Of a stretch of DNA of 46,415 bases, positions 5,474 through 20,134 are shown one piece after another. Where the stretch lies: assembly GCA_015063725.1 (NCBI GenBank), contig SVTP01000018.1, positions 1 to 46,415 of the forward strand, written 5' to 3'. How positions within the stretch are numbered: position 1 is the stretch's first letter; the number at the start of each line of letters is the position of its first letter. Origin of the DNA: Oscillospiraceae bacterium. GTDB taxonomy: Bacteria; Bacillota; Clostridia; Oscillospirales; CAG-272. Below the pieces are notes generated by a model. That model saw only the letters and a program-made list of their open reading frames with translations. It did not search any database and was not told where the DNA came from. The translations under genes and the position numbers were made by a program.

Positions 5474-7330
5474 ATGAAAAAACGAAAAACAGAAAAGCAA
5501 ACAACAGAAAAACAAGAAAAAAAGAAGATCAATTGGCGGCGGACGTTTCAAAACAACGTCTATATGCTCAGGCTTTTGATCAAAGCCTGCCCCGGGGTGT
5601 TTATTCTCGACCTGATCACTACAATCGTGAGCGCGGTCCGCTCCTTTTTGACGGGTACTTATCTTTATATGTACGCACTCAACGCACTGCAAGAGGGCGT
5701 TGCGCTGGATAGCATTTTGGTAACGCTTGGGTGCATGATCACGTTTTGCGTCTTGGAAATGCTCTTTCAAAACCTCTCGGCATGCTATTTCAACATCAAA
5801 TACCACGTTGTCAATGGTTATTTCCAGAGCATTATGCAAAAAAAGGCGGTCGAGGTCGACCTTGCCTGCTACGAGAACGCCGCGTTTTTTGACACCTATA
5901 TCAAAGCGGCGGATGAAGCAACCAGCCGCGCTTATTCCGTTATGAACAACATTACAGGTGTGATTTGGGTGATTGTCAACGTCGGCGCCACAGGTGCATT
6001 GATCGTTTCCATCGACCCCGTGTTCATTCTCATCGCGCTCGCGCCTGCTATTTGCACGCTCCTCATTGGCAAAAAGCGCAACCGCCTCCGTTACGATTAC
6101 GATATGCGCAACAAAGAGGTTGGCAGACAACGCGACTACGTGCGCCGTACCTTTTACCTCAAGGACTTCTCCAAGGAGATGCGCCTGAGCGAGATGTGGA
6201 AGGTTATGTACGAGCGTATGCACAACAGCGTAGCCGAGCTCAAGGAGAACATTCACAAGTACGGCTACAAGGTCATGCTCTTCCGCTATCTGTATGACGT
6301 TATATACAACGTGCTGGTCTATTCGGGCACAGTTTTTCTGGCTTCCTTCAAAACACTGGTGCTCAAAAACATGCTCATCGGCGATTGCTTTGTGGTCATC
6401 AACTCCATCAGCAACGTTGCGGGCAACATCAACTATATGGGCAACGTGTTCCTCAAATTGGACGAAAACTCGCTCTACGTCGACAATCTGCGCAAGTTTT
6501 TGGAGTACGAGGTGCGCATTGCCGAGGACGAAAACGCGCCTGTTGTTTCTGCTTTTGAAAAGCTGGAGCTGCGGAACATGACCTTCTCCTACGAGGGACA
6601 AAAAACGCCCGCTCTCGCAGGCGTTAGCTTTGAGGTCAAGGCGGGGGAAAAGATCGCCATCGTCGGTCACAACGGCGCAGGCAAGACCACGCTCATCAAG
6701 CTCCTGCAGCGCTTGTATGACCCCGACGAGGGTGAGATCCTCGTCAACGGTGAAAACATCAAAACCTACCGTCTCTCGTCCTACCGCGCTCTCTTTGGCA
6801 CCGTCTTTCAGGACTACTGCCTCTTTGCCACCACCGTTGCCGAAAATGTCATGCTGCGCGGCAACATCACCGACGAGGACCGCGAAATTGTCAAGGCGTC
6901 GCTTCAAAAGGCGGGTATTTCTGAAAAGATCGAAGCCCTGCCAAACGGTGTTGACACCACCGTAACGCGCGAGTTTGACAAAGAGGGCGCTATGTTTTCG
7001 GGCGGTGAGGCGCAAAAGATCTCCATTGCACGACTTTTTGCAGGCGGGCAGGAGATCGTCATTATGGACGAGCCCACCTCGGCACTCGATCCCATTGCCG
7101 AGCAGGAAATGTACCGCAATATGTTCGAGGCGTGCCAAGGAAAAACGGTCATCTTCATCTCGCACCGCCTCTCCAGCGCCACCATGGCAGACCGCGTATA
7201 TCTGTTTGAAAACGGACAGATCATCGAGGCGGGAACGCACAAAGAGCTGCTTGCCCTTGACGCCAAATACGCCGATATGTGGCACAAGCAAGCAGATACC
7301 TATCTTGACAAAAAGGAGGTGACGGCATAA
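5474..7330 (+). CDS. ABC exporter half-transporter A (fused membrane and ATPase domains)
   Basis: 618 aa. A basic cytoplasmic N-terminus precedes an exporter-type membrane domain (about residues 30-340, about six helices). The ATPase domain has Walker A GHNGAGKTT (398-406), Q-loop VFQDY, signature FSGGEAQ (near 508), Walker B IVIMDEP with its catalytic Glu, D-loop SALDP and H-loop ISHR. The signature reads SGGE where most exporters have SGGQ. AGAGGTG precedes the ATG. The partner half-transporter begins one base after this stop, so the two very probably form a heterodimeric exporter of peptides, lipids or drugs. Both ATPase sites keep their catalytic Glu and His, unlike asymmetric exporters such as BmrCD/TM287-288. 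Substrate unknown. Confidence 0.9.
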   Translation: MKKRKTEKQTTEKQEKKKINWRRTFQNNVYMLRLLIKACPGVFILDLITTIVSAVRSFLTGTYLYMYALNALQEGVALDSILVTLGCMITFCVLEMLFQNLSACYFNIKYHVVNGYFQSIMQKKAVEVDLACYENAAFFDTYIKAADEATSRAYSVMNNITGVIWVIVNVGATGALIVSIDPVFILIALAPAICTLLIGKKRNRLRYDYDMRNKEVGRQRDYVRRTFYLKDFSKEMRLSEMWKVMYERMHNSVAELKENIHKYGYKVMLFRYLYDVIYNVLVYSGTVFLASFKTLVLKNMLIGDCFVVINSISNVAGNINYMGNVFLKLDENSLYVDNLRKFLEYEVRIAEDENAPVVSAFEKLELRNMTFSYEGQKTPALAGVSFEVKAGEKIAIVGHNGAGKTTLIKLLQRLYDPDEGEILVNGENIKTYRLSSYRALFGTVFQDYCLFATTVAENVMLRGNITDEDREIVKASLQKAGISEKIEALPNGVDTTVTREFDKEGAMFSGGEAQKISIARLFAGGQEIVIMDEPTSALDPIAEQEMYRNMFEACQGKTVIFISHRLSSATMADRVYLFENGQIIEAGTHKELLALDAKYADMWHKQADTYLDKKEVTA

Positions 7331-7331
7331 T

Positions 7332-9185
7332 ATGAAAAAGAAAGAAAAGAAAGAGAAAAAGCAAAAGAAGGAAACAGACGAGAAAAAGAAGGAGCGGCAC
7401 AATCCCGTCAGGGTTGTTAAAAACCTTTGGTTTATGCTGCAGTTCGTGTTCAAATACACGCCCATGTATGCCGTTATCACGGTCATAGAGGCTCTCGGAC
7501 GCGGCGCGTCGCACGTTATCGGCATCCTCTTTACCAAGTACATTTTTGACGCCATAGAGAAGGGAACCGACTTCAGGGAGGTCCTTTTCTGGATACTGCT
7601 CGTCACGGGCTATAACGCGGCGTTTGAGCTCTTTAACAAGTGGCGCTACGACGTCTTTTTCCCGCGCGCAAAGCTGACCTTGCACGAGACCATTCAAAAC
7701 GAGCTTTACAAAAAGGCGCGCGAGCTTGACCAAAGCTGCTACGACGATCCCGAATTCTACAACGACTTCATCTGGGCGATTCGCGAGTCCGACGGACGTA
7801 CGGCGAACATTGTGGAGTGCTTCAGCATTATGATCAACCGCGTCACCTCAAGTGCAGCAGTGCTGGGACTCCTCGCCTCAATGGATTGGGTGGTCACCCT
7901 GATCCTTGTTTCGTCGGTCATCCTCGGCTTTGTTGTTAAAACCTGCCTCAACAAAATTGGCTACCGTCACAGCCTGGAGGCAAATCCCATCTGGCGCAAG
8001 GTCGGTTATTTCCGCCGCGTGTTCTATATGCCTGACTACGCAAAAGAGCTGCGCCAAGGCGGCATTGCCGAGCACTTGCAAAATGAATATCAAAAGACGA
8101 ACAAAGAGATCATCGCTTGCAATAAAAAGTATCAAAAAAAGTATCTTGGGCTTTGGATCCTCTCGGACCTTCTCGTCTACCTGATGCCCTCTGTGGGCAT
8201 TACAAGCTATCTGGTGGTGCGTTACATCACCGATGCTACCCTGTCGCTGGGTAGCTTTTCCGCAAGCATCAGCGCCAGCCACAAGCTCTACTACACGCTC
8301 GATGATATTGGTAACTACATCAACAAATTCCACGAGCATAGTCTCTACATCGAAAAGGTAAAGACCTTTATTCAATACCAGCCCAAGATCAAGGGAGAGG
8401 AGACCAACGTCCCCGCGTTTGAAACGCTGACGGTGAAAAATCTCGACTTTGTCTACCCCTTTACCAAGGACGACAAAAAGACCTTAGAGGGGCTTGATCT
8501 GGAAATCAAAAAGGGAGAAAAGGTCGCCTTTGTGGGCTACAACGGCGCGGGCAAGACCACGCTCATCAAGCTTTTGATGCGGCTTTATGACGCCACGAGC
8601 GGCGAGATCCTTTACAACGGCCGCAACGTAACCGATTTTGACCCCGAAAAATACCGCGAGCACATTGGCGCGGTGTTCCAGGATTATAAGGTTTTTGCAG
8701 CAACGGTTGCCGAAAACGTGATGGGCGGCACCTATACCGATGCTGATGAAGAAGCAGTGCTGTCGGCGCTGCGCGCGGCATCTTTTGAAGAAAAACTCAA
8801 GCAACTCCCCGACGGCATTCACTCCCAGCTCACCACCGAGTTCAGCAAAGAGGGCGTTGGGCTCTCGGGCGGCGAGGCGCAAAAGATCGCCATCGCACGC
8901 GTGTTTGCAAGACCGTTTGAGCTCATCATTATGGACGAACCGTCCTCGGCGCTCGATCCCATAGCCGAGTACGAGCTCAACCAGTCCATCCTCAAGCACG
9001 CCGAGGGCAAAACGGTCATCTTCATCTCGCACCGTCTTTCCACCACGCGCATGGCGGATAGAATTTACATGTTCGACGGCGGCAAGATCGTGGAGAGCGG
9101 CTCGCACGACGAACTCATGGCACAGGATGGCAAATACGCCGAAATGTACCGCGTGCAAGCGAAAAAATACAAAACGGCATCGTAA
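7332..9185 (+). CDS. ABC exporter half-transporter B (fused membrane and ATPase domains)
   Basis: 617 aa. An extremely basic N-terminus (mostly Lys/Glu for about 25 residues) is followed by an exporter-type membrane domain (about 35-335) and an ATPase domain: Walker A GYNGAGKTT from residue 402, Q-loop VFQDY, signature LSGGEAQ, Walker B LIIMDEP with catalytic Glu, D-loop SALDP and H-loop ISHR. The start is separated from gene A by one base, and AAGGAGGTGA inside the end of gene A supplies the ribosome site, so expression is coupled. Like its partner it has SGGE in the signature. It is the last gene of the operon, with the terminator at 9197. Most likely one half of a heterodimeric exporter; substrate not evident. 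Confidence 0.9.
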   Translation: MKKKEKKEKKQKKETDEKKKERHNPVRVVKNLWFMLQFVFKYTPMYAVITVIEALGRGASHVIGILFTKYIFDAIEKGTDFREVLFWILLVTGYNAAFELFNKWRYDVFFPRAKLTLHETIQNELYKKARELDQSCYDDPEFYNDFIWAIRESDGRTANIVECFSIMINRVTSSAAVLGLLASMDWVVTLILVSSVILGFVVKTCLNKIGYRHSLEANPIWRKVGYFRRVFYMPDYAKELRQGGIAEHLQNEYQKTNKEIIACNKKYQKKYLGLWILSDLLVYLMPSVGITSYLVVRYITDATLSLGSFSASISASHKLYYTLDDIGNYINKFHEHSLYIEKVKTFIQYQPKIKGEETNVPAFETLTVKNLDFVYPFTKDDKKTLEGLDLEIKKGEKVAFVGYNGAGKTTLIKLLMRLYDATSGEILYNGRNVTDFDPEKYREHIGAVFQDYKVFAATVAENVMGGTYTDADEEAVLSALRAASFEEKLKQLPDGIHSQLTTEFSKEGVGLSGGEAQKIAIARVFARPFELIIMDEPSSALDPIAEYELNQSILKHAEGKTVIFISHRLSTTRMADRIYMFDGGKIVESGSHDELMAQDGKYAEMYRVQAKKYKTAS

Positions 9186-9790: not shown

Positions 9791-9819
9791 TTGATTTATT
9801 CACACTTTTGTGATATAAT
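9791..9819 (+). promoter_or_regulatory. Promoter of the 7TM-LuxR regulator gene
   Basis: TTGATT at 9791-9796, a 17-bp spacer, and TATAAT at 9814-9819 in the context TGTGATATAAT. The spacer carries a TCACA-CTTT-TGTGA inverted repeat (9800-9813). Confidence 0.8.
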
Positions 9820-9857: not shown

Positions 9858-10814
9858 ATGACAGTAGGATATGCGATATGTTTAACAGCCGCCGCGGGCT
9901 TGCTGATAGCCTATCTGCTAATGGTCAAGGATAAGGAATTTTGGCTGACGATGCTGTATATCAGCATTGCGGTGGTCAATCTCGGATACCTTTTGATATC
10001 CCTTGCAAACACCGTAGGATTTGCGCTGTTCGCAAATGACGTGGCGTACCTCGGCAGCGTGTTTCTCTCGGCGTTTATGTTCCTCACGATAGTCCGCCTA
10101 TGCGGATTTGAGATCAAGAAAGCCCACGTGATCACCTGCGTGTCGATGGGTGTTGTAATGTTCGCTATCGTTGCAAGTTCACCGATGCTTCCGCTTTACT
10201 ACAAGAGCGTGGATATTGAAATGATCGATGGCGCGGCGAAGCTCGTCAAGGAATACGGAGTACTGCATCCCTTCTATATGGTGTATCTGCTCGGCTACTT
10301 TGCCGCAATGATAGGTGCGATCGTTCACTCGGTTAGAAAAAAGAAGATCGCCAAGCCCAAGCTCGCAGGCTTTATTGCCGCCATCGTTTGCAGTAACATC
10401 ATGATGTGGCTGTTTGAAAGGTGGCTCCATTGGGGATATGAGTTCCTTTCGGTTACCTACGTAATCTCCGAGTTATTGCTCTTGATCGTCTATTGGATGA
10501 TGCAGGACTACGTTCATAAGGACGATGTTCCCGTCCTCACTCCGGCAGAGTCGGAGCAGCTTGGAATTGATATTGCCACGATGCCGATGGACGTAAAGAT
10601 CGGCAAGGTGCTTTTGTGCTTAAAGAACGGTGAAACTCTTGCTCCCCGTGAGCGTGAAGTGCTTGAACTGATACTTCAATATAAAAAGCGCAGAGAGATC
10701 GCTGAAATATTGTACGTATCGGAAAGCTCTGTGAAGCTCTATACGAGAACACTTTACTCCAAGCTCGGCGTGACCTGTCGAGAGGAATTGTATGCGATTC
10801 TCGTAAAAAAATGA
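9858..10814 (+). CDS. Membrane-bound one-component regulator: 7TM sensor fused to LuxR-type HTH
   Basis: 318 aa. The first ~215 residues hold about seven hydrophobic helices in the pattern of the histidine-kinase N-terminal 7TM domain (YGVLHPFYMVYLLGYFAAMIG is characteristic). There is no kinase or receiver domain. Residues ~260-318 are a LuxR/NarL-type helix-turn-helix: LAPREREVLELI, then REIAEILYVSESSVKLYTRTLYSKLGV, complete to the end of the protein. A membrane sensor coupled directly to DNA binding is therefore predicted; the ligand is unknown. The ribosome site GAAGGAGGT precedes the ATG. It is monocistronic, with its own promoter and the terminator at 10841. The TACCCCT box array directly downstream, before the large surface-protein operon, is its likely target (inference). 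Confidence 0.88.
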   Translation: MTVGYAICLTAAAGLLIAYLLMVKDKEFWLTMLYISIAVVNLGYLLISLANTVGFALFANDVAYLGSVFLSAFMFLTIVRLCGFEIKKAHVITCVSMGVVMFAIVASSPMLPLYYKSVDIEMIDGAAKLVKEYGVLHPFYMVYLLGYFAAMIGAIVHSVRKKKIAKPKLAGFIAAIVCSNIMMWLFERWLHWGYEFLSVTYVISELLLLIVYWMMQDYVHKDDVPVLTPAESEQLGIDIATMPMDVKIGKVLLCLKNGETLAPREREVLELILQYKKRREIAEILYVSESSVKLYTRTLYSKLGVTCREELYAILVKK

Positions 10815-10840: not shown

Positions 10841-10871
10841 AGACGACGGTAAAACACCGCCGTCTTTTTTT
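10841..10871 (+). terminator. Terminator of the regulator gene
   Basis: Stem AGACGACGGT/ACCGCCGTCT (10841-10850 with 10856-10865, one mismatch), loop AAAAC, then seven T. Confidence 0.8.
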
Positions 10872-10890
10872 GTCTCAAAAATTGGACTTC

Positions 10891-11000
10891 TCACCCTTTT
10901 TTACCCCCAAGATAGCGTAATTACCCTTTTTCTACCCCTAAATTTAGAAAAACCACCCCAAACCTACCCCTAATTTTGATACTTTTACCCCTAAGGGGTA
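10891..11000 (+). promoter_or_regulatory. Helically phased array of seven TACCCCT-like operator boxes
   Basis: Boxes with an ACCC core whose A lies at 10893, 10903, 10923, 10934, 10955, 10966 and 10987. The spacings are 10, 20, 11, 21, 11 and 21 bp, so all lie on nearly one face of the helix, as pairs repeated every ~31-32 bp. Three boxes are exactly TACCCCT (10933, 10965, 10986). The last is joined to an inverted copy AGGGGTA (10994-11000), giving a 7-1-7 inverted repeat. TACCCCT fits the TACYYMT heptamer known for NarL, a member of the LuxR/NarL HTH class. Predicted binding site of the adjacent 7TM-LuxR regulator. Confidence 0.75.
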
Positions 11001-11001
11001 G

Positions 11002-11030
11002 ATGCCAAAGCCAAAAATTCATGATAAAAT
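11002..11030 (+). promoter_or_regulatory. Activator-dependent promoter of the surface-protein operon
   Basis: Extended -10 TGATAAAAT (hexamer 11025-11030). The -35 position 17 bp upstream (11002-11007) reads ATGCCA, unlike the consensus. The 7-1-7 inverted repeat ends one base upstream of that position, centred about 44 bp before the expected start, a classic activator placement. Confidence 0.6.
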
Positions 11031-11085: not shown

Positions 11086-11523
11086 GTGACCGAAAAGCGA
11101 ATTCTATTCGACAGGTTTGAGTTTCCTGTGGAGAAAGGACTCGAGTATCTTATTAACGAGAACGTACCCGAAACCGACTTTCTGCTGATAAGCGGGCAGC
11201 ACGATTCCTTTTTGCTTATGTTCGAGAAGGACTTTCCGATCTTCACTGTACCCGAAAGCAGCGACCGACCGTATTGCTTATTTGAGATGAAGCGCCCTGG
11301 CAGGGTGATAAAATTCTTCTGCCCCGAAAGGCATAAAAATCTTGATTCGGTCGTTTGGTACTTCTACGTAGAGCTGTTTGATGAACAGGGTGTGGCGCAC
11401 GGACTTCCCGGACAGGTGCGAGTGGAAATGAGCGAGTCTTGCATAAGGATGGCGAAGAATAAGCCCAAATTCATTGAGATACTTGAACAGGTTAGATTAA
11501 AAGACACGGCGATATTCGCCTGA
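11086..11523 (+). CDS. Orphan 145-aa soluble protein, first gene of the surface-protein operon
   Basis: I do not recognise this protein. It is soluble, with no signal peptide or membrane helix. Visible segments are RILFDRFEFPVEKGLEYL, VPETDFLLISGQHDSFLLMFEKDFPIF and DSVVWYFYVELFDEQG, ending with a charged helix KPKFIEILEQVRLKD. The start is a GTG at 11086 placed after GGAGGTG. The preceding bases make ATGTGA, so an ATG directly followed by a TGA stop overlaps the start, an arrangement that could temper translation. It is the first gene after the phased operator array and precedes the four giant surface proteins by only 28 bp, so it is presumably co-regulated with them and may act in the cytoplasm on their expression or export. 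That role is inference. Confidence 0.65.
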   Translation: MTEKRILFDRFEFPVEKGLEYLINENVPETDFLLISGQHDSFLLMFEKDFPIFTVPESSDRPYCLFEMKRPGRVIKFFCPERHKNLDSVVWYFYVELFDEQGVAHGLPGQVRVEMSESCIRMAKNKPKFIEILEQVRLKDTAIFA

Positions 11524-11551: not shown

Positions 11552-14500
11552 ATGAAAACAAAACACACAAAGAGATTTTTTGCATTATTGCTCGCTATTT
11601 TTATGGTTGTAGCGATCCTGCCGTTTTCGGCGATCACCGCGTTTGCGGCACCGGGTAGTGGCGGAACCGTTACGGTTGACGGAGGAGCCTCCTCGGCGGG
11701 CTCTTATTCGGTATTATCGGGCACCGAGGTTACCCTTACGGCACAAACGCCTCCCTCGGGACAGGTGTTTTTAAGGTGGGTATGTGAGTCGGGAGGCGTG
11801 ACATTTGCAGATCCCGATTCTCCGCAAACTACTTTTACTATGGGCTCGTCTGACGTAAGCGTTAAAGCAATATATAAGGATATATCCGAGATCGTGATAA
11901 CCTCTGTGGAATATGCAATGACGCTCGGCGCACCCTCTGTTGGTGCTACGCTTGAAGTACCTACGCTCGTCAGTGTAAACGGGCGCGAGCATTGGACAAG
12001 CCTGATCGATTCAGGCTACGGCGTTTGTGAATGGTACACCTGCATTGACGGCGGCGACGTTGCTGACCCCGAAGATTATACTTTTCCGTACAGCGAGGCA
12101 ACCTTTGAGGCTGGAAATGCTTACGCCTTGTATGCAGATATAACCGCTGTAAGCGGAGTGCTGTTTTCAAAGGATTGTACCTTCAACGTCATTACTCCTG
12201 CCGATACATACACCGTAGATAAATACTACGGGGCATACGATGAATACGCTGAACCTATCGATGAGGTGACCGAAACCACGAAGATCACAAACCTTTCTTA
12301 TCTCTGGATAGTTGGCGAGATCGATGACGAGTATTCGATATCCGAGATAGATTTTGAGCTTAGCGGCTACGAGGAGGGAATGACTGCAGGCAATCTTAGC
12401 ATCAGCGCAGATCATGAAGGTGTGGCTATTGGAAGCAATAGTGTCTACGGTGTGGACTTCGCACTCATAGATGCCGGTGGCAATCAGCTTGCCGAAGGTG
12501 CTGCTTTAGCGAACAATACGCTGTATACACTTGTAGTCATCTTTTCTGCAAGAGAAGGCTATGAGATACTTATAGACGAGAATGATTTTGGCAAGGTAAC
12601 TGCTTGCGGTGTAAATCCTTTCAGTATGATGTATGACAATACTGATAAAGTGTATACCGCAATGTTTGTATTGCCTCCTATCAATACAACGACGGAAGCG
12701 GTTGAGTCTGTTGACTTCACGCTTGACGGATATGCATACGGCGCCGCGGTAAATAACATGAGCATCGTTTCTGAAAACAGCAACGTGATGGTGGCTACAG
12801 GTTCGGGCGCCGTTACGATAACCAAGGAGGACGGTACGGCTGCAACGGGCAATTTTTTGGAGGGTGCGCATACTCTTACTTTTATGATTTCCGCCCTTCC
12901 GACACATGACCTTTGGCAGCTTTCCTGTGAAAACGTAACCCTTGGCGGCATATTCCCGGCATCAAGTGTATCTCACGCAATATTTGGCAGCGCACTTGTA
13001 ACGATCGTTACATTTGACCTCCCCGCGCTTGACGAAAATATGATAGAAAACCTGCAATTTGCAGGCAACCCATACACCTTTGTTCCGGGAAATCCCATAG
13101 AGGACGCAACGGTATCTACTACCGACACGAATAAGATCGTTATTGACGAGTTCGTGATAATAAATGAGGACGGCTCGGCGGCAGAGGGCGTACTTCTGCC
13201 TTTGACCAAGTATCTTGCGAAGATCACCTTCCACGCAAAGAGCAATTACAGCCTTGCGGGACTTGATACGACCAAGATACTTGAGTTTGGCGGCACTATT
13301 CCCGCAAAGAGCCTTACTTATGACCCCGAAACCGATACGATGACAGCGGTGCTTGAAATTACTACGGGCAAGCTCACGGTACAATCGGTAGAGCTTGAAG
13401 CACCGAGCGTTATCACTGCGAACGGACCGCTATTCTATCCCACGATAAAGAGCGTAAACGGCTGCGAGGAGCTTGCAAGCTACGTTACCATTCTTGATGA
13501 TAGCATGGAATGGACCTACAACAAGGTAGGCAACGGCAATCCCAGCTATGAATACGAGGAAGATACCTTTATTGACGGGAATATCTATGCGCTTCACGGT
13601 ACTTTGGGTGTCACGTCGGAAGAAAATGCCGTTATGGGTGATCTTGACAGCTTCGAGATAACCTATACACCCGACACGATGGTGAATTATGTATCGGAAG
13701 GCAACAGCGCTGAAGGAAGAACCTTTACCGTAGAGTTTCAAGATTTTCTCCTTCCCGATGATATAGTCATCAGCTCTCTTGAATTTTCCTACGACGGCTC
13801 TCTTCCTCCCAAGGCAGGCGAAGCGGTAAAATATCCTACCCTCGTCAGCATTAACGGAGATCCCTCGCTTGTATATAAGCTGAAGGATGAATTATATTTT
13901 GAGTGGCTTTACGCAATAGTACTCAATTTGGACGATAACGGATATGAGGATTTTGAGCTGCCTGCATTCCTGCCCGGCTACTCATACGCCTTAGGTCTTG
14001 AAGCATATACCTATAACGTTTATAACATGACCTTTGCCGATGACGTTGCTTATACGGTAACCCATTCGGACGGAATCCTGACGGGAAGCTTCAGCGAATG
14101 GTCGGGAGAAAACCACGCCTACGTTTATCATTACTTTGAAAATACCGAGGGCGAGATCCCCAATAAGCGCCCCGAGAAGATCGAGCTGACGCTTGAAGGA
14201 TATGAAGCAGGGAAAGCGGCAAATACAGTAAAGGTAACGGCCACCGGAGAGAGATTCAAGTTTAATGATTCCTACGGCATGGGGTACGGAATGATGGACA
14301 GTAGCTGGAGTCCTCTTAGCACCGAGATTTTGAAACAAGATGCTTACTATGTTTTGGCGGTTAGCCTGCTTCCCGAGGAGGGATATTCCTTCCTCTCGAC
14401 TTACGGCGACTACTCCTATATCACTCTCAACGGCTGGACCTGTTATTCTTACGAGTTTGGATTTGATCCTATCGTAGGAGAATTTTTGACACTCTTCTTT

Positions 14501-15238
14501 GACCTTCCCGTGCTCCGCCAGAATGCGACTGAGATAGAGAATATAGATATCACATTTGACGGTTATGAAATAGGCGGCAGAGTAGATTCTATTACTGCCG
14601 TAACCGCGACACCAGGTGTTCTTCTTGACTTGAAGCCCGAGGATTACGGTTATGAGAATATATTCTACTTCTATGGCTTTGAGGGCAAGGATTACAGATA
14701 TATCGATTATACCGAGAAGCTTCTCAAGGATACTCCTTATGAATTAAATATCTTCGTTTATATAGCCGAGGGCTTCTCTGTAAACAATATCAAGCCAGAA
14801 AATATCAAGCTCGGTAACGTCACCGCAAGCTCTGTTGCAATGTGCGCAACATCTGATGCCGATGACGTGGGGCACAACTACTTGTTGCTCACCTTCAAAC
14901 TTGACCCTCTGCACGAGGCAGGCAGTACGTGGGATTACGATGAGAATAACCATTGGAACGAGTGCGATTGCACCGAGATGATGAACGTAGCGCCTCATGC
15001 TGATAAAAACGGCGACGGCAAGTGCGACGTTTGCGGCTACGATATGTCTAACGAACCCGGCACTGACCCCAAAAATCCCGATGGTCCCGACAAAAAGGAT
15101 GGACTCGGCACAGGCGCGATCGTTGGTATCGTGATTGGTTCGGTTGCAGTCGTCGGCATCGGAGGCTTTGCGATCTTCTGGTTTGTGATCAAAAAGAAAT
15201 CCTGGGCTGACCTTCTTGCAATCTTCAAGAAGAATTAA
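11552..15238 (+). CDS. Giant surface protein I (1228 aa): InlB-like repeat, about eight Ig-like modules, membrane anchor
   Basis: A Sec signal peptide (cleavage near AITAFA-APG, residue 32) is followed by one divergent InlB B-repeat-like domain (33-110: LSGTEVTLTAQTPPSG, FLRWVCESGGVTFAD, TTFTMGSSDVSV). Then come about eight modules of ~100-130 residues. Type A reads VGATLEVPTLVSVNGRE... and ATFEAGNAYALYADI. Type B opens with SVDFTLDGYAYGAAV-like strands. Near the C-terminus is DKNGDGKCDVCGYDM, an Asp/Cys motif that may bind metal, then a Pro/Asp-rich linker and a membrane helix GAIVGIVIGSVAVVGIGGFA with a basic tail. There is no LPXTG, so it is tethered by the helix. Predicted adhesin or substrate-binding surface protein; no enzyme domain seen. 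Confidence 0.85.
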   Translation: MKTKHTKRFFALLLAIFMVVAILPFSAITAFAAPGSGGTVTVDGGASSAGSYSVLSGTEVTLTAQTPPSGQVFLRWVCESGGVTFADPDSPQTTFTMGSSDVSVKAIYKDISEIVITSVEYAMTLGAPSVGATLEVPTLVSVNGREHWTSLIDSGYGVCEWYTCIDGGDVADPEDYTFPYSEATFEAGNAYALYADITAVSGVLFSKDCTFNVITPADTYTVDKYYGAYDEYAEPIDEVTETTKITNLSYLWIVGEIDDEYSISEIDFELSGYEEGMTAGNLSISADHEGVAIGSNSVYGVDFALIDAGGNQLAEGAALANNTLYTLVVIFSAREGYEILIDENDFGKVTACGVNPFSMMYDNTDKVYTAMFVLPPINTTTEAVESVDFTLDGYAYGAAVNNMSIVSENSNVMVATGSGAVTITKEDGTAATGNFLEGAHTLTFMISALPTHDLWQLSCENVTLGGIFPASSVSHAIFGSALVTIVTFDLPALDENMIENLQFAGNPYTFVPGNPIEDATVSTTDTNKIVIDEFVIINEDGSAAEGVLLPLTKYLAKITFHAKSNYSLAGLDTTKILEFGGTIPAKSLTYDPETDTMTAVLEITTGKLTVQSVELEAPSVITANGPLFYPTIKSVNGCEELASYVTILDDSMEWTYNKVGNGNPSYEYEEDTFIDGNIYALHGTLGVTSEENAVMGDLDSFEITYTPDTMVNYVSEGNSAEGRTFTVEFQDFLLPDDIVISSLEFSYDGSLPPKAGEAVKYPTLVSINGDPSLVYKLKDELYFEWLYAIVLNLDDNGYEDFELPAFLPGYSYALGLEAYTYNVYNMTFADDVAYTVTHSDGILTGSFSEWSGENHAYVYHYFENTEGEIPNKRPEKIELTLEGYEAGKAANTVKVTATGERFKFNDSYGMGYGMMDSSWSPLSTEILKQDAYYVLAVSLLPEEGYSFLSTYGDYSYITLNGWTCYSYEFGFDPIVGEFLTLFFDLPVLRQNATEIENIDITFDGYEIGGRVDSITAVTATPGVLLDLKPEDYGYENIFYFYGFEGKDYRYIDYTEKLLKDTPYELNIFVYIAEGFSVNNIKPENIKLGNVTASSVAMCATSDADDVGHNYLLLTFKLDPLHEAGSTWDYDENNHWNECDCTEMMNVAPHADKNGDGKCDVCGYDMSNEPGTDPKNPDGPDKKDGLGTGAIVGIVIGSVAVVGIGGFAIFWFVIKKKSWADLLAIFKKN

Positions 15239-15250
15239 ATTCCGAACGAT

Positions 15251-15276
15251 AGGCGGCAAGTCCGCTTGCCGCCTAC
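15251..15276 (+). other. Intercistronic RNA hairpin
   Basis: A perfect 11-bp stem TAGGCGGCAAG/CTTGCCGCCTA with a TCCG loop and no T-run after it. Probably an mRNA stabilising or processing hairpin rather than a terminator; it strongly resembles the hairpin at 29820. Confidence 0.7.
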
Positions 15277-15310
15277 CCCCCAAAAAAATAAATTGAAAAG
15301 GAGAAAAACA

Positions 15311-18300
15311 ATGAAAAAGTTATGGCTTATCACTTTGACGCTTATTATGGCGTTAACACTCTGCTTTGGGCTGACAGCTTGCGGAGATAAGACCGTAGAG
15401 CAGCTTCAGAACGAGCTTGGCGCATTGCTTGAGGGCGGAAACTTCAAAGAAGGCTCTGTTCTTAACGTCAATGACATTACAGCAGAAAGAGCAACCGAGA
15501 TCCTCGGCAAGCTTGAGGATAACGGTATCACGATTGACGACGAAACCAAGGCGTACATCTACGATATTTTCGTAACCAAGGACAACTCCGAGGTGCAGCC
15601 CGACGGAAAGGTGAAGGTGACCGTTCCAATGCCTGCTGACGAAAAGGCAGAGGGCTACAACGTATATCACATGAAGGATAACGGCGCGGTTGAAGTGATC
15701 CCTTCCACCTACAAGGACGGTAAGGTATCCTTTGAAACCGACGGCTTTTCCTCTTACATTTTTACTCCTACGTACAATTGTGTTGTTAGCGGTATATTAG
15801 ATTCGGACGTTACCGGCATTGTTGTGGACACTGATAATACGGTCGTTTACGATCCCAACGGCGACACCCCGCTGCCCAATTTTGAAAGCGTAAAGGTTAC
15901 AGCCGTTGCCCCCAACGGTACGTTCGTGCTTTCGGCAGACAAATATACGATTGACCTTGGAGGTCTCGACGCTACAAAGCCCGGTTCATACACCGTAACC
16001 TACACATATAACAAGAATACCGACATTAAGGCAACCGTTAACGTTGTCGTCCTGAATGAAGCCGTAAGGATCATGGTTGAAAATTACGGCTGGGGCGGAC
16101 ACACGGATATTCTGGGTGAGATCTTCGTGGAAAAGGGCGAGGAGGTCACCATCAACGCATATCTTGATGACGAGGAAAGATTTATTTTCTCGGGCTGGTA
16201 TCAAAATGATTTCGGCACTCGCGTAGCAGGTGCTATGACCTACACCTTTACAGCGACCGAGGATGTCACGTTGATTGCAAGATTTGAAAAGAATACCAAG
16301 GTGGATCTGATAATTGAAGCATACTGTATGTCGAATGGTATGCTCTCCGATCAGGTCGATATCTTGGTTGACGGTTTCCACCTTAAAGAAGAGAATATGG
16401 AAATGATCCTCAGACAGCTCCACGTTGGCAAGATCCTACATCTTGAAGCGCATTCTCCGGATGAAAGCCTCAGATTTGTTGGCTGGTATGAAGTCAGAAA
16501 GAATGACGAATTCAACGATGCCGTTTACAGAGAGCCCATTTCCGAGGAAATGTTCTTAAGCTATCAGATAAGAGACCTGGACGTTCATCTTATCGCGCTT
16601 TTCGCAGACGATACCCCCTATTCCAACGCACAGATCATAGGAGCGGATCAGGACGGAGAGCTTATAGTTAATGGCGAGTCTGTTGGAATAAGTACCACCC
16701 TTGAGGTTGGAAAAACCTATACCTTTGACGTAAATATTGGAGAGGATTACAGATTCCTTTACTGGCAGATCGAGGAGTATAATCGCAGCTTCACGATTGA
16801 AAATGTAACCCTGGAATACAAGGTTATTCCCGCATCCCGCCACGTATACGCGGTCTGCGAGCCCATTTTTGTGGACATGAAGATGGCGTACGGCAAGGAC
16901 GAATACACCTTTAAGGCAGGGGATGACGTATTTGCGCAATTGCAGTCTGCGGACGTTCGTCTGTTCTTGCCGTCCGGCAGCAGTATGTGGTCCACTTACG
17001 GTCAGACCCATACCATTGATTACGTAAACCTTGACCCCTCTAAGGTCGGTACGTACTGCATAGTCTACGAGTGCCTAAGCAACCCCGAGCTTTACGCAAA
17101 AGTTACCGTACATATCATCTCCACAGAGATCTCGTTTAATGCAACAGCAAATAAGGGTACGCTTATGATCGACGGTGAGGATATCGGTTCTGCTTATTCC
17201 GCGACCTATGCGGATGGCTATGGCAAGGTGACCCTTACAGCAAAGGGTGTTGAGAACACCGTGTTCAAGGGCTGGTACGTAGTGAACGGAAATACCACCG
17301 AGCTTGTCAGCACCGATGAGACCTTTACCTTTGAGATCGATAAAACTACAAGTGTGTACGCGGATTTCGAGTATGTAGTTACAGATCTTGTCGTAGATAT
17401 GGGTGATCTTATTTATGACGTGACCCTGCTCGAAAAGTACGAGAGCATCAGCATTCCCGACTTTAATGCGATCTGCAAAGAAGGCGGCACAAGCGAAAAA
17501 TGGAAAACAGATTACATTATTTTCGGTAAGATCAAGAGCATTTCCAACACCACTTGGGGCAATATGATCATTGTTGACGATCAGGGTAACGAGCTTCACG
17601 TTTACGGTCTGTATTTAGAGGACGGTACCCGTTACGGCAAGATGGAGACTAAGCCCGCGGTTGGTGATTTCATTGCCGTTCACGGCAAGCCCTACCTTTA
17701 CGGAACAGAGCCCGAGATGCAGAAGGGATATCTGCTGAACGCCACTCCCATACTCCCGAGCTTTGAGAACGTAACGGTTCACGCATACACTCCCGAAGGC
17801 TCGTCCGTTCTTAGGGCAGACGAATTTACGGTAAACACGAGCGCGCTGAACCCGGCGAAGCCCGGCGAGTATCTTGTCACCTATACTTATAAGGAAAATC
17901 CCGAGATCAAGGCGACCGTAACCGTTAAGGTCCTTGCCAATGCACCCGTTGACTTCAGCGCGTGGGTAAACGGCGGAACTCTCCTTCTTGACGGCGTAGA
18001 GATCGGTCCCGATTACTTTGAGACCTTCAAGGACGGCTTCGGCAAGATAACTCTTACCGCTGTCGGCGAGGAAAACACCGTATTCAAGGGCTGGTACACA
18101 AATGAGGATAATCCTACTCTGATCAGCACCGATGCAACCTACACCTTTGAATTTGATGAGAACATCTACGTTTACGCAGAATTTGAGTATACCGCAACCG
18201 AGATCTGGCTTGACGGCATGAACATGGGCTTTGATACTGATGGCGGTATTACCAACATCTATCTCCCCGTTCAGGGAACGTATGATCCGAACCGTATTCT

Positions 18301-20134
18301 TGTTTTCGCTTTGATAAACGGCGAGCCTGAGGCTCTTACCGCTGACGAGTACACCATTGATCTTGGCGGCTTTAACGGTACAAACCCTGCAAAGGGTGAC
18401 TATGTGCTCACCTTTACCTATAAAGCAAATCCCGAGCTTAAGGCAACGCATATGATCCGTGTTCTTGACGAAGAAAATCTGGTGAACTTCAATGCAAGCT
18501 CTGCTCCCGGTGGCAGAGTAAATGTTGATAAGCCCTACGACCAGTTCAATAAGGGCGAACAGGTTACCGTAACCGTTGAGCTTCGCTCCGAGAGCGATTA
18601 CGAGTTCCTCGGTTGGTACACGGTGGATGCAAGCGGTGCGGTTGGCACTACCTGCGTTTCTACCGAAAGAACCTATACAGTTACCTTAAACGAAACCACT
18701 TACCTCTACGCAAAGATAGAGCCTAAGATCACCCGTCTTGAGGTTGAGGGCTATGAAGGTGAGCCTACGAGAATTCACATCAGTAAGTTCTGGCTTGCTG
18801 ACAGAGAGATCAAGGTTTACGCTTGCGGCGCACTCGGCAAGAGAGTAGAACTTACCGCAAACGACTACACCGTTGATATGGGCGGCCTTAATTTGACCAA
18901 TCCCGTTGTTGGTAAATACACAATAACCTACACCTATAAGGCAGACACGAGCATCACCTACACTGTTACCGTTTGGGTATATGATGCGGATTACACGTTC
19001 TCTGCCGATCAGGACAGCCCCGATAACGGTTGGTTGCTCTTTGAAGGGTCTCTTACCCATGCGGTAGAGCCGTATCAGTACATTAGCGGAGAAGAAATCA
19101 CCATTACCGCAGCGGCAAAAGAGGGTTATACCTTCCTCGGCTGGTATCTTGCGATCGATCACGATACTCACGTCGAATACGAGCTGATTACAACCGATGC
19201 GACCTACACCTTTACCATTGATAAGGACACCAAAATCCAGGCGAAATTCGGCGCACCTGTGACCGAGATCGACCTTGGCGGTGCGAACCCCATCACTGTT
19301 TATCGGGGAGAATTTGTGGATCTTTCGCATATTGGCGTATGGTCGTATAGCTTGATCGAGTCGAGAAATCTGAACACTGACGAATATACCGTTGACCTTG
19401 GCGGTCTTGACGTGAACGACCCCGTCGCAGGCACGTACACGATCACCTACACCTACAAGGAAACCCCCGAGCTCACGGCAACGCTTACCGTCACCGTTTT
19501 GAAGAGATCCTACTATGTTGAGGTAACAAGTGATAGCGGACGTTTCAAATACAACGGCGATGAAACCATGCACCTGTTTGAAAAAATTGAGGAAGGCACT
19601 ACGATCGTTCTGGAGGCAGTCATTCCCAATCCTATGTACCGTGCATTCCTTGGTTGGAACAAATTCGACTATGAAACCGGCGAATGGAAGCTTTACAGCA
19701 CCAACAAGATTCTCACGCTCGTTGTGGAAGAATCGGCAGAGGGTGAAATAAGACTTCGCCCCGTATACGGTTATGTAACCAGGAATCTCGAAATGTATGT
19801 AATGGGTCATAACAAGCTTTACGAAGCAGGCGTTCAGCATTGGAATTTTGACGATATGGGATACTGGGATGAGGAGCTTGGCAGATACATTGCCTGCGGC
19901 AATATCGATCTTTATGCAGACAGCGAATATGCCACCGATATTGCAAAGCTCTTTGAGAACTTCCATATCTTTGCGGCAGATTGCAACGGACATCGTCAGC
20001 AGATCTCTCACGAGGATCTGACCATCGACCTCGGCGACTATAAGGCTGAGGAAGGCTGGTATGAGATCAAGGTCTCTTACGGCTCGTTTACGATGACCGT
20101 TAACGTGATGGTCATGCCTGCTGAAAACGCATAA
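15311..20134 (+). CDS. Giant surface lipoprotein II (1607 aa): alternating Ig-like and InlB-like repeats with an OB-fold insert
   Basis: The start at 15311 follows AAAAGGAG. A lipoprotein signal has its lipobox at FGLTAC-G (about C22). Residues ~45-155 form a ZU5-like domain (VQPDGKVKVTVPMP ... FSSYIFTP) that also appears near the C-terminus of protein III. Then at least five Big_3-like modules (SADKYTIDLGGLDATKPG, YTVTYTYNKNTDIKATV) alternate with InlB B-like modules (FLGWY...TDATYTFTIDKDT). About residues 708-815 form an OB-fold-like domain (YIIFGKIKSISNTTWGN, VGDFIAVHGKPYLYG), as in the first gene of the window. There is no C-terminal helix, so anchoring is by lipid. Probably a long stalk-like adhesin or glycan binder; no catalytic domain seen. 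Confidence 0.85.
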   Translation: MKKLWLITLTLIMALTLCFGLTACGDKTVEQLQNELGALLEGGNFKEGSVLNVNDITAERATEILGKLEDNGITIDDETKAYIYDIFVTKDNSEVQPDGKVKVTVPMPADEKAEGYNVYHMKDNGAVEVIPSTYKDGKVSFETDGFSSYIFTPTYNCVVSGILDSDVTGIVVDTDNTVVYDPNGDTPLPNFESVKVTAVAPNGTFVLSADKYTIDLGGLDATKPGSYTVTYTYNKNTDIKATVNVVVLNEAVRIMVENYGWGGHTDILGEIFVEKGEEVTINAYLDDEERFIFSGWYQNDFGTRVAGAMTYTFTATEDVTLIARFEKNTKVDLIIEAYCMSNGMLSDQVDILVDGFHLKEENMEMILRQLHVGKILHLEAHSPDESLRFVGWYEVRKNDEFNDAVYREPISEEMFLSYQIRDLDVHLIALFADDTPYSNAQIIGADQDGELIVNGESVGISTTLEVGKTYTFDVNIGEDYRFLYWQIEEYNRSFTIENVTLEYKVIPASRHVYAVCEPIFVDMKMAYGKDEYTFKAGDDVFAQLQSADVRLFLPSGSSMWSTYGQTHTIDYVNLDPSKVGTYCIVYECLSNPELYAKVTVHIISTEISFNATANKGTLMIDGEDIGSAYSATYADGYGKVTLTAKGVENTVFKGWYVVNGNTTELVSTDETFTFEIDKTTSVYADFEYVVTDLVVDMGDLIYDVTLLEKYESISIPDFNAICKEGGTSEKWKTDYIIFGKIKSISNTTWGNMIIVDDQGNELHVYGLYLEDGTRYGKMETKPAVGDFIAVHGKPYLYGTEPEMQKGYLLNATPILPSFENVTVHAYTPEGSSVLRADEFTVNTSALNPAKPGEYLVTYTYKENPEIKATVTVKVLANAPVDFSAWVNGGTLLLDGVEIGPDYFETFKDGFGKITLTAVGEENTVFKGWYTNEDNPTLISTDATYTFEFDENIYVYAEFEYTATEIWLDGMNMGFDTDGGITNIYLPVQGTYDPNRILVFALINGEPEALTADEYTIDLGGFNGTNPAKGDYVLTFTYKANPELKATHMIRVLDEENLVNFNASSAPGGRVNVDKPYDQFNKGEQVTVTVELRSESDYEFLGWYTVDASGAVGTTCVSTERTYTVTLNETTYLYAKIEPKITRLEVEGYEGEPTRIHISKFWLADREIKVYACGALGKRVELTANDYTVDMGGLNLTNPVVGKYTITYTYKADTSITYTVTVWVYDADYTFSADQDSPDNGWLLFEGSLTHAVEPYQYISGEEITITAAAKEGYTFLGWYLAIDHDTHVEYELITTDATYTFTIDKDTKIQAKFGAPVTEIDLGGANPITVYRGEFVDLSHIGVWSYSLIESRNLNTDEYTVDLGGLDVNDPVAGTYTITYTYKETPELTATLTVTVLKRSYYVEVTSDSGRFKYNGDETMHLFEKIEEGTTIVLEAVIPNPMYRAFLGWNKFDYETGEWKLYSTNKILTLVVEESAEGEIRLRPVYGYVTRNLEMYVMGHNKLYEAGVQHWNFDDMGYWDEELGRYIACGNIDLYADSEYATDIAKLFENFHIFAADCNGHRQQISHEDLTIDLGDYKAEEGWYEIKVSYGSFTMTVNVMVMPAENA

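Follow-up and report, generated by a model that had tools for sequence, protein, structure and literature searches.

A helically phased array of ACCC boxes between a seven-helix LuxR-type regulator gene and a putative surface-protein operon: a candidate activator operator in Oscillospiraceae

Between a gene for a predicted membrane-bound regulator and a series of large surface-protein-like genes, the Oscillospiraceae DNA studied here carries a short run of ACCC-cored boxes spaced at about one or two turns of the double helix. The question that this arrangement raises is which protein the boxes would serve, and what its binding would do to the genes that follow. We addressed it by analysis of the whole stretch of 46,415 nucleotides (referred to below as ‘the window’; contig G000:C15 of a 1.85 Mb genome that is 80% complete) and of homologous loci in other genomes.

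The array, the regulator and the downstream genes

The array lies between the gene for a 318-residue regulator, which is followed by a terminator-like site, and the large surface-protein-like genes. Two consecutive ABC transporter genes, encoding ∼618 residues each, occupy positions 5474–9185 upstream of the regulator. The features of the locus are as follows (all on the forward strand; L021 and L030 are relatives described below).

9791..9819, +, probable promoter of the regulator gene from a consensus scan, TTGATT-17-TATAAT with a TG before the −10
9858..10814, +, membrane one-component regulator, 318 residues; HisKA_7TM-type sensor at residues 8–212 and LuxR/NarL-type HTH at residues 260–313 (Pfam)
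10845..10874, +, intrinsic-terminator-like site after the regulator gene from a consensus scan, stem at 10845–10864 followed by a T-rich tail
10892..10898, +, box 1, CACCCTT; distal, decayed in L021
10902..10908, +, box 2, TACCCCC; distal, decayed in L021
10922..10928, +, box 3, TACCCTT; distal, decayed in L021
10933..10939, +, box 4, TACCCCT; distal, decayed in L021
10954..10960, +, box 5, CACCCCA; proximal unit, ACCCC core unchanged in L030 and L021
10965..10971, +, box 6, TACCCCT; proximal unit, same sequence in L030 and L021
10986..11000, +, box 7 with its inverted partner, TACCCCT-A-AGGGGTA (TACCCCTAAGGGGTA); putative anchor site, at about −44 as judged from the −10
11025..11030, +, −10 hexamer TAAAAT, TG-extended (TGATAAAAT); exactly 25 bp past the GGGT half-site, an offset common to 26 of 29 loci
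11086..11523, +, first gene of the presumed operon, 145 residues, no Pfam family
11552..15238, +, large protein with a signal-peptide-like start (by eye) and an InlB B-repeat domain; probably located at the surface
15266..20134, +, another large protein, carrying Ig-like and InlB B-repeat domains; presumed to belong to the same operon

The regulator is assigned by Pfam to HisKA_7TM (PF16927, 43.5 bits against a cut-off of 28.6) and to GerE (PF00196, 45.3 bits against a cut-off of 23.5), the latter match bearing out a sequence-only reading of this DNA that had placed a LuxR/NarL-type HTH in the gene just upstream of the array. Pfam searches of the regulator at E 0.001 returned no HisKA or HATPase kinase domain and no receiver domain; the protein is thus neither a histidine kinase nor a NarL-family response regulator. 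Its AlphaFold2 model (mean pLDDT 81.9) contains seven long helices within residues 2–215, a hairpin at residues 115–133, a weakly predicted linker at residues 224–236 and the HTH helices at residues 263–316, and a profile of the family matches GerE, NarL and VraR chains in the PDB over the HTH.

The ACCC cores of the array start at positions 10893, 10903, 10923, 10934, 10955, 10966 and 10987, with steps of 10, 20, 11, 21, 11 and 21 bp, so that our recount agrees with the seven boxes and spacings reported earlier; the terminal 7-1-7 inverted repeat is likewise present. First and last boxes are 94 bp apart, which corresponds to nine helix turns at 10.4 bp per turn, and the boxes therefore face the same way. 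The density of ACCC (in 120-bp windows) is higher here than anywhere else in the window. The longest in-phase chain comprises seven boxes, as compared to a maximum of four (reached five times) in 5,000 dinucleotide shuffles of the 400 nucleotides downstream of the regulator. The proposed match of the box to the TACYYMT heptamer of NarL holds in full only for the forward boxes at 10933, 10965 and 10986 and for the inverted half, ACCC being what all seven boxes have in common; the box is probably better described as an ACCC core with subfamily-dependent flanks than as a general NarL heptamer.

In 15 of 37 loci (window included) the operator is followed by a gene for the 145-residue protein or a homologue of it, members of a conserved family that lacks a Pfam match; the AlphaFold2 model of the 145-residue protein (mean pLDDT 39.3) is unusable. 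Large products are also encoded downstream in other loci, many of them with signal-peptide-like starts (by eye). Among 18 of 29 such products that were scanned, nine contain InlB B-repeat, Ig-like or carbohydrate-binding domains above cut-off and nine gave no Pfam match above cut-off. From their sequences, the downstream products are likely to be surface proteins, and plausibly adhesins.

Conservation of the array among relatives

An initial scan of genome contigs yielded 17 loci, in metagenome-assembled genomes titled Clostridia, Clostridiales or Oscillospiraceae, many of which came from goat, sheep or water-deer gut. Further searches covered 394 genomes of the order, 35 of the genus, and 295 and 395 of the family, in samples that overlap; all named relatives are metagenome-assembled genomes. 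A regulator match at E 1e-30 or better was present in only 5 of the 35 genus genomes (many of them incomplete), and the locus therefore looks accessory.

The set used for counting consists of 37 non-redundant close homologues with at least 300 nucleotides of downstream sequence, duplicate loci having been set aside. Eight further close homologues that end within 300 nucleotides of a contig end or have a partial gene (L008, L022, L040, L069, L077, L081, L109 and L128) were not counted; no array was seen in the 155 and 207 nucleotides available at the contig-end loci L008 and L077. The regulator gene of L025 (L025/L006, genome G022) carries an in-frame TGA, and its three-box operator looks intact; this locus was kept out of alignments, trees and the correlation described below, while its operator and open C-terminal part were included in the box, phasing, residue, geometry and cluster counts. 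Thirty-five distant homologues were also examined, of which 33 passed the length and completeness filter, with further distant matches left aside.

Three or more in-phase ACCC boxes directly follow the regulator in 32 of the 37 close-homologue loci, and two or more in 33; the corresponding means for shuffled sequence are 0.07 and 2.17 loci. The same test applied to the 33 distant homologues gave no locus with three boxes and one with two, and the box and its ∼10.5-bp phasing, on which the sequence-only reading had staked its case, are thus conserved in orthologous loci. Neighboring ACCC cores no more than 45 bp apart are separated by 10–11 or 20–22 bp in 80 of 87 cases (Rayleigh R of 0.91 at a period of 10.5 for the 87 steps, with the caveat that related loci are not independent). 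At 80%, 70% and 60% DNA identity the 32 operators fall into 22, 5 and 1 clusters, and their HTH domains into 18 clusters at 80% and 10 at 70%; judged by this clustering, the operators are related to one another and are not copies.

The layout found most often, box-11-box-20/21-inverted repeat, forms the end of 14 of the 32 arrays, not counting the window and L030. The window contains this two-box unit three times over (as box-11-box-21-inverted repeat), and its seven-box form looks like an expansion of the layout of its relatives. Alignment with L030 and with L021, whose regulator is 91% identical to that of the window, shows intact ACCCC cores in the inverted repeat and in the two proximal boxes, whereas the four distal boxes are mutated in L021. 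This decay, together with the prevalence of the proximal unit on its own, makes the distal boxes look like dispensable reinforcement; that all seven boxes are essential is ruled out by L021.

The remaining close homologues depart from this pattern in several ways. L027 has the inverted repeat only, L029 has two boxes, L108 has ACCTA boxes (chosen by eye) and L028 has no box. L124 (genome G693) also has no box, and by eye the start of an IS200-type transposase directly follows its regulator in the place of the operator. Two copies of a palindrome-like sequence, GTTCGCGATTGCGAAC, and a near-consensus promoter follow the regulator of L028 instead of an array.

Other box types were noticed by eye after more distant regulators. 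Downstream of the distant 7TM-LuxR homologues L056 (G299) and L060 (G373), CACACTTTT boxes stand ∼11–12 and 30–32 bp apart and end in an inverted repeat with AAAAGTGTG, so that a layout of this kind recurs with a box of unrelated sequence. Boxes of the types GTCCACCC, GTAGCCC and GTGACC, with steps near 10–11 and 23–24, follow a STIKKH-type HTH at L011/L045 (G052) and L050 (G164).

Autoregulation was considered and rejected: not even two in-phase boxes were found within 300 nucleotides upstream of the regulator, on either strand, among 37 entries (36 of them with at least 150 nucleotides; L025 was discounted, its stretch lying inside its own interrupted gene).

Correspondence between the operator and the HTH domain

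Across 31 loci and with sensor identity held constant, the DNA similarity of operators rises with HTH identity (partial r of 0.61, permutation p of 0.0005); with HTH identity held constant, it is uncorrelated with the identity of the sensor (−0.04, p of 0.71).

Natural recombinants point the same way. L030 shares 45% identity with the window over the sensor and 99% over the HTH, and it has the same seven-box layout (steps of 10, 20, 10, 21, 11 and 21 bp); the two DNAs are 82–98% identical over a stretch that begins near codon 230, includes the array and extends at least 700 bp into the operon. Conversely, L023 is 93% identical to the window over the sensor and 29% over the HTH, has the region just upstream of the regulator in common with the window, and carries a different array (TCACCC at steps of 10, 11, 21, 11 and 11 bp); L024 resembles L023, with 86% identity over the sensor and 44% over the HTH. 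The change-over point in these recombinants lies just past the last transmembrane helix. The co-variation of box and HTH and these domain swaps connect the boxes with the HTH encoded upstream, as the sequence-only reading had supposed for the membrane regulator, and the same comparisons indicate that HTH and operator have been exchanged jointly between sensors.

The flank of the box also appears to follow a single residue of the protein, the one after the invariant lysine of the recognition helix (residue 294 in the window protein, which we take to correspond to Val189 of NarL). Twenty-four loci with threonine at this position have TCACCC boxes and seven with methionine have ACACCC boxes, while three with leucine have mostly TTACCC or CTACCC boxes; the single locus with tryptophan, L108, has ACCTA boxes (by eye) at 11-bp steps and an ACCT-N5-AGGT repeat. 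Individual boxes deviate, as for example the C before ACCC in 4 of 17 boxes of the leucine type. When the commonest flank per locus is taken, the residue agrees with the box at all 35 loci whose operator can be read (L028 and L124, which have no boxes, being skipped), and yet the residue changes four times on an HTH tree built without that column, so that with only about four evolutionary changes the link is suggestive and not statistically strong. On the other side of the core, a C follows ACCC in 34 of 45 boxes of proteins with Y295 and R297 as opposed to 20 of 66 boxes of other proteins, a difference that runs along clade lines.

Promoter geometry and a proposed mode of action

The best-scoring −10 element within 5–55 nucleotides beyond the terminal inverted repeat lies exactly 25 bp past it in 26 of the 29 loci with a readable repeat; the most loci sharing any one offset in 500 shuffles was six. 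Repeats were accepted in the form ACCC-N5-GGGT, or ACCC-N4-GGGT in one subclade, and with one mismatch in a few cases. By these rules, L028, L029, L101, L107, L108, L124 and L126 have no readable repeat (the ACCT form of L108 falls outside the pattern, and its −10 stands 28 bp from the repeat), and L033 has too little sequence in the stretch used, which leaves 29 of the 37 loci. Divergent offsets were found at L027 and L103 (13) and at L106 (15). At the methionine-type loci L101 and L126 an extra box lies one turn nearer to the promoter, and the next-to-last box is at the usual distance (by eye). In 21 of the 29 loci the −10 is extended by TG.

The promoter had earlier been described as having no −35 element. 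In the window, however, the hexamer ATGCCA stands at a 17-bp spacing and matches TTGACA at four of six positions, and partial −35 elements (four or five of six) occur in 12 of the 29 loci as opposed to 13% expected from shuffles; these promoters are thus not devoid of a −35. If transcription is assumed to start 7 bp after the −10, the repeat would be centered at about −44. The constant 25-bp offset in 26 of 29 loci places the site next to the −35 region, where a class II-type activator would be expected, with the start site predicted from the −10.

We consider it very probable that the array is an operator from which the upstream membrane LuxR-type regulator activates the adjacent surface-protein operon, in the manner of NarL from about −44 and with the upstream boxes acting cooperatively. 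The regulator's HTH would bind the ACCC boxes, and a pair of HTH domains on the terminal inverted repeat, centered near −44, would sit against the −35 region and recruit RNA polymerase to the extended −10 promoter with its partial −35, as NarL does at napF and yeaR. Further HTH domains could be aligned along the same side of the helix, an arrangement known for BvgA at fhaB and ptx, with the upstream boxes serving as cooperative sites. The products of the operon are large and probably exposed at the surface, so that the cell surface would change in response to an external signal perceived by the seven-helix sensor. It is plausible, too, that the membrane location of the protein makes the same-face array a docking strip.

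The same protein and sites might instead hold the promoter in repression until a signal releases it. The inverted repeat adjoins the −35 region, where bound protein could block polymerase, and the excess of partial −35 elements noted above (12 of 29 with four or five of six) is compatible with such a role; but the fixed 25-bp distance to an extended −10 and the mostly imperfect −35 elements fit activation better. L028, moreover, has no array and carries GTGACA-17-TATAAT, a near-consensus promoter (by eye), which is what would be expected at this single locus if the loss of an activator had been compensated. We regard repression as unlikely.

Less probable still is that the boxes bind another, unlinked regulator, to which the neighboring gene is incidental. 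A pattern of three TCACCC boxes (with a first step of 10–11) gave 15 matches in 13 of 395 family genomes, and its reversed control gave none; this pattern misses some layouts, such as that of L102 with a first step of 20. By coordinates, 14 of the 15 arrays (12 genomes) are directly downstream of a threonine-type regulator, and the remaining match lies within a G+C-rich reading frame. Among 33 regulator-bearing genomes, the equivalent ACACCC pattern occurs six times, in three genomes, including sites beside the methionine-type regulators of G480 and G614; several known methionine-type arrays that contain a mixed box escape it. A second array in G614 lies within 12 kb of sequence that holds no such regulator, and an array in G565 is at least 3.6 kb from any regulator, on a contig other than the one that ends at the regulator. 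These orphan arrays favor an unlinked protein and rule out a strict rule of one array per regulator, but both genomes also hold a methionine-type regulator, operator similarity tracks the HTH of the neighbor, and the swaps move HTH and operator together. Most arrays thus adjoin their regulator, but there are targets in trans.

By eye, the orphan array of G614 has last-box-to-−10 distances equal to those of the array beside its regulator, and it precedes a degenerate-looking copy of the small first gene (which the profile search did not report) and then a secreted-protein-like gene. Near the orphan array of G565 (L145/L152, G565:C236), the opposite strand carries what by eye resembles a serine-recombinase frame, which starts ∼370 bp before the boxes and runs away from them. 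A wider regulon in the genome of the window was not supported, as a loose pattern gave, besides the array, a single G+C-rich match on another contig, while the control gave two. Finally, chance or low-complexity T/C-rich sequence is a negligible explanation, for although runs of T and C abound in this region, the shuffles, the distant-homologue control and the persistence of arrays where the HTH is only 29–50% identical to that of the window all speak against it.

Activation by the neighboring regulator, which we favor, has partial parallels in known systems. ToxR and TcpP of Vibrio have direct-repeat sites about one turn apart. They carry a winged-helix domain, unlike the LuxR-type HTH here, and are described in the accessible part of the literature as membrane-bound activators, as is proposed for this family. 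The HTH of the regulator belongs to the same family as that of E. coli NarL, but NarL is a soluble response regulator and the protein described here is a membrane protein that lacks a receiver domain. NarL prefers a 7-2-7 operator; the window repeat has the heptamers with a spacer of one base (7-1-7, one base shorter in a subclade; ACCC-N5-GGGT or ACCC-N4-GGGT in relatives), and the present arrays have direct-repeat boxes upstream. According to the accessible part of one report, NarL activates from sites at −40 to −49 and −38 to −47 (napF and yeaR), and an engineered NarL site, TACCCCTAAAGGGGTA, differs from the inverted repeat of the window by one A (PMC4549865).

BvgA of Bordetella, a NarL-family-type regulator, occupies one face of the DNA at fhaB and ptx with its proximal site abutting the −35, as here; its head-to-head dimers recur every 22 bp, in contrast to direct repeats at 10–11 and 20–21 bp, and fhaB has its strong inverted repeat at the far upstream end, whereas that of the present arrays is nearest to the promoter (PMC7250471, from the part available). 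DadR, CadR and HcdR of Eggerthella lenta are membrane LuxR-type one-component regulators shown to activate neighboring genes, but have a larger membrane domain of 10–12 transmembrane helices (compared to seven long helices in our model) and metabolic targets; the accessible text of that report yielded no binding motif for them (PMC9734109). HisKA_7TM proteins appear in the literature, by titles, in archaeal and eukaryotic signaling. We found no paper describing this 7TM-LuxR family or its array in a literature search whose coverage excluded most subscription journals. Each ingredient has a known parallel; the novelty lies in the family, in its rigid layout and in the fact that HTH and operator have been exchanged together.

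A broader interpretation, on which we are evenly divided, is that of a plug-and-play surface switch, in which sensor modules and modules of HTH plus matching operator are exchanged by recombination just past the last membrane helix, one recognition-helix residue sets the box, and the same-face array acts as a landing strip for a membrane-bound regulator. If true, a single step would suffice to bring in a new sensor or a new DNA specificity. Related clades of 7TM-LuxR proteins may share this arrangement and yet rely on boxes of a very different kind.

One-component regulators bound to the membrane are widespread, and their way of acting on genes from that location has been described as poorly understood (PMC10269533). 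The family described here offers dozens of natural variants, a rigid promoter layout, domain swaps and a readable residue-to-base correspondence, so that operator recognition, spacing rules and specificity become directly testable. It also predicts which sensor would switch which uncharacterized surface-protein operons in ruminant-gut and related Clostridia.
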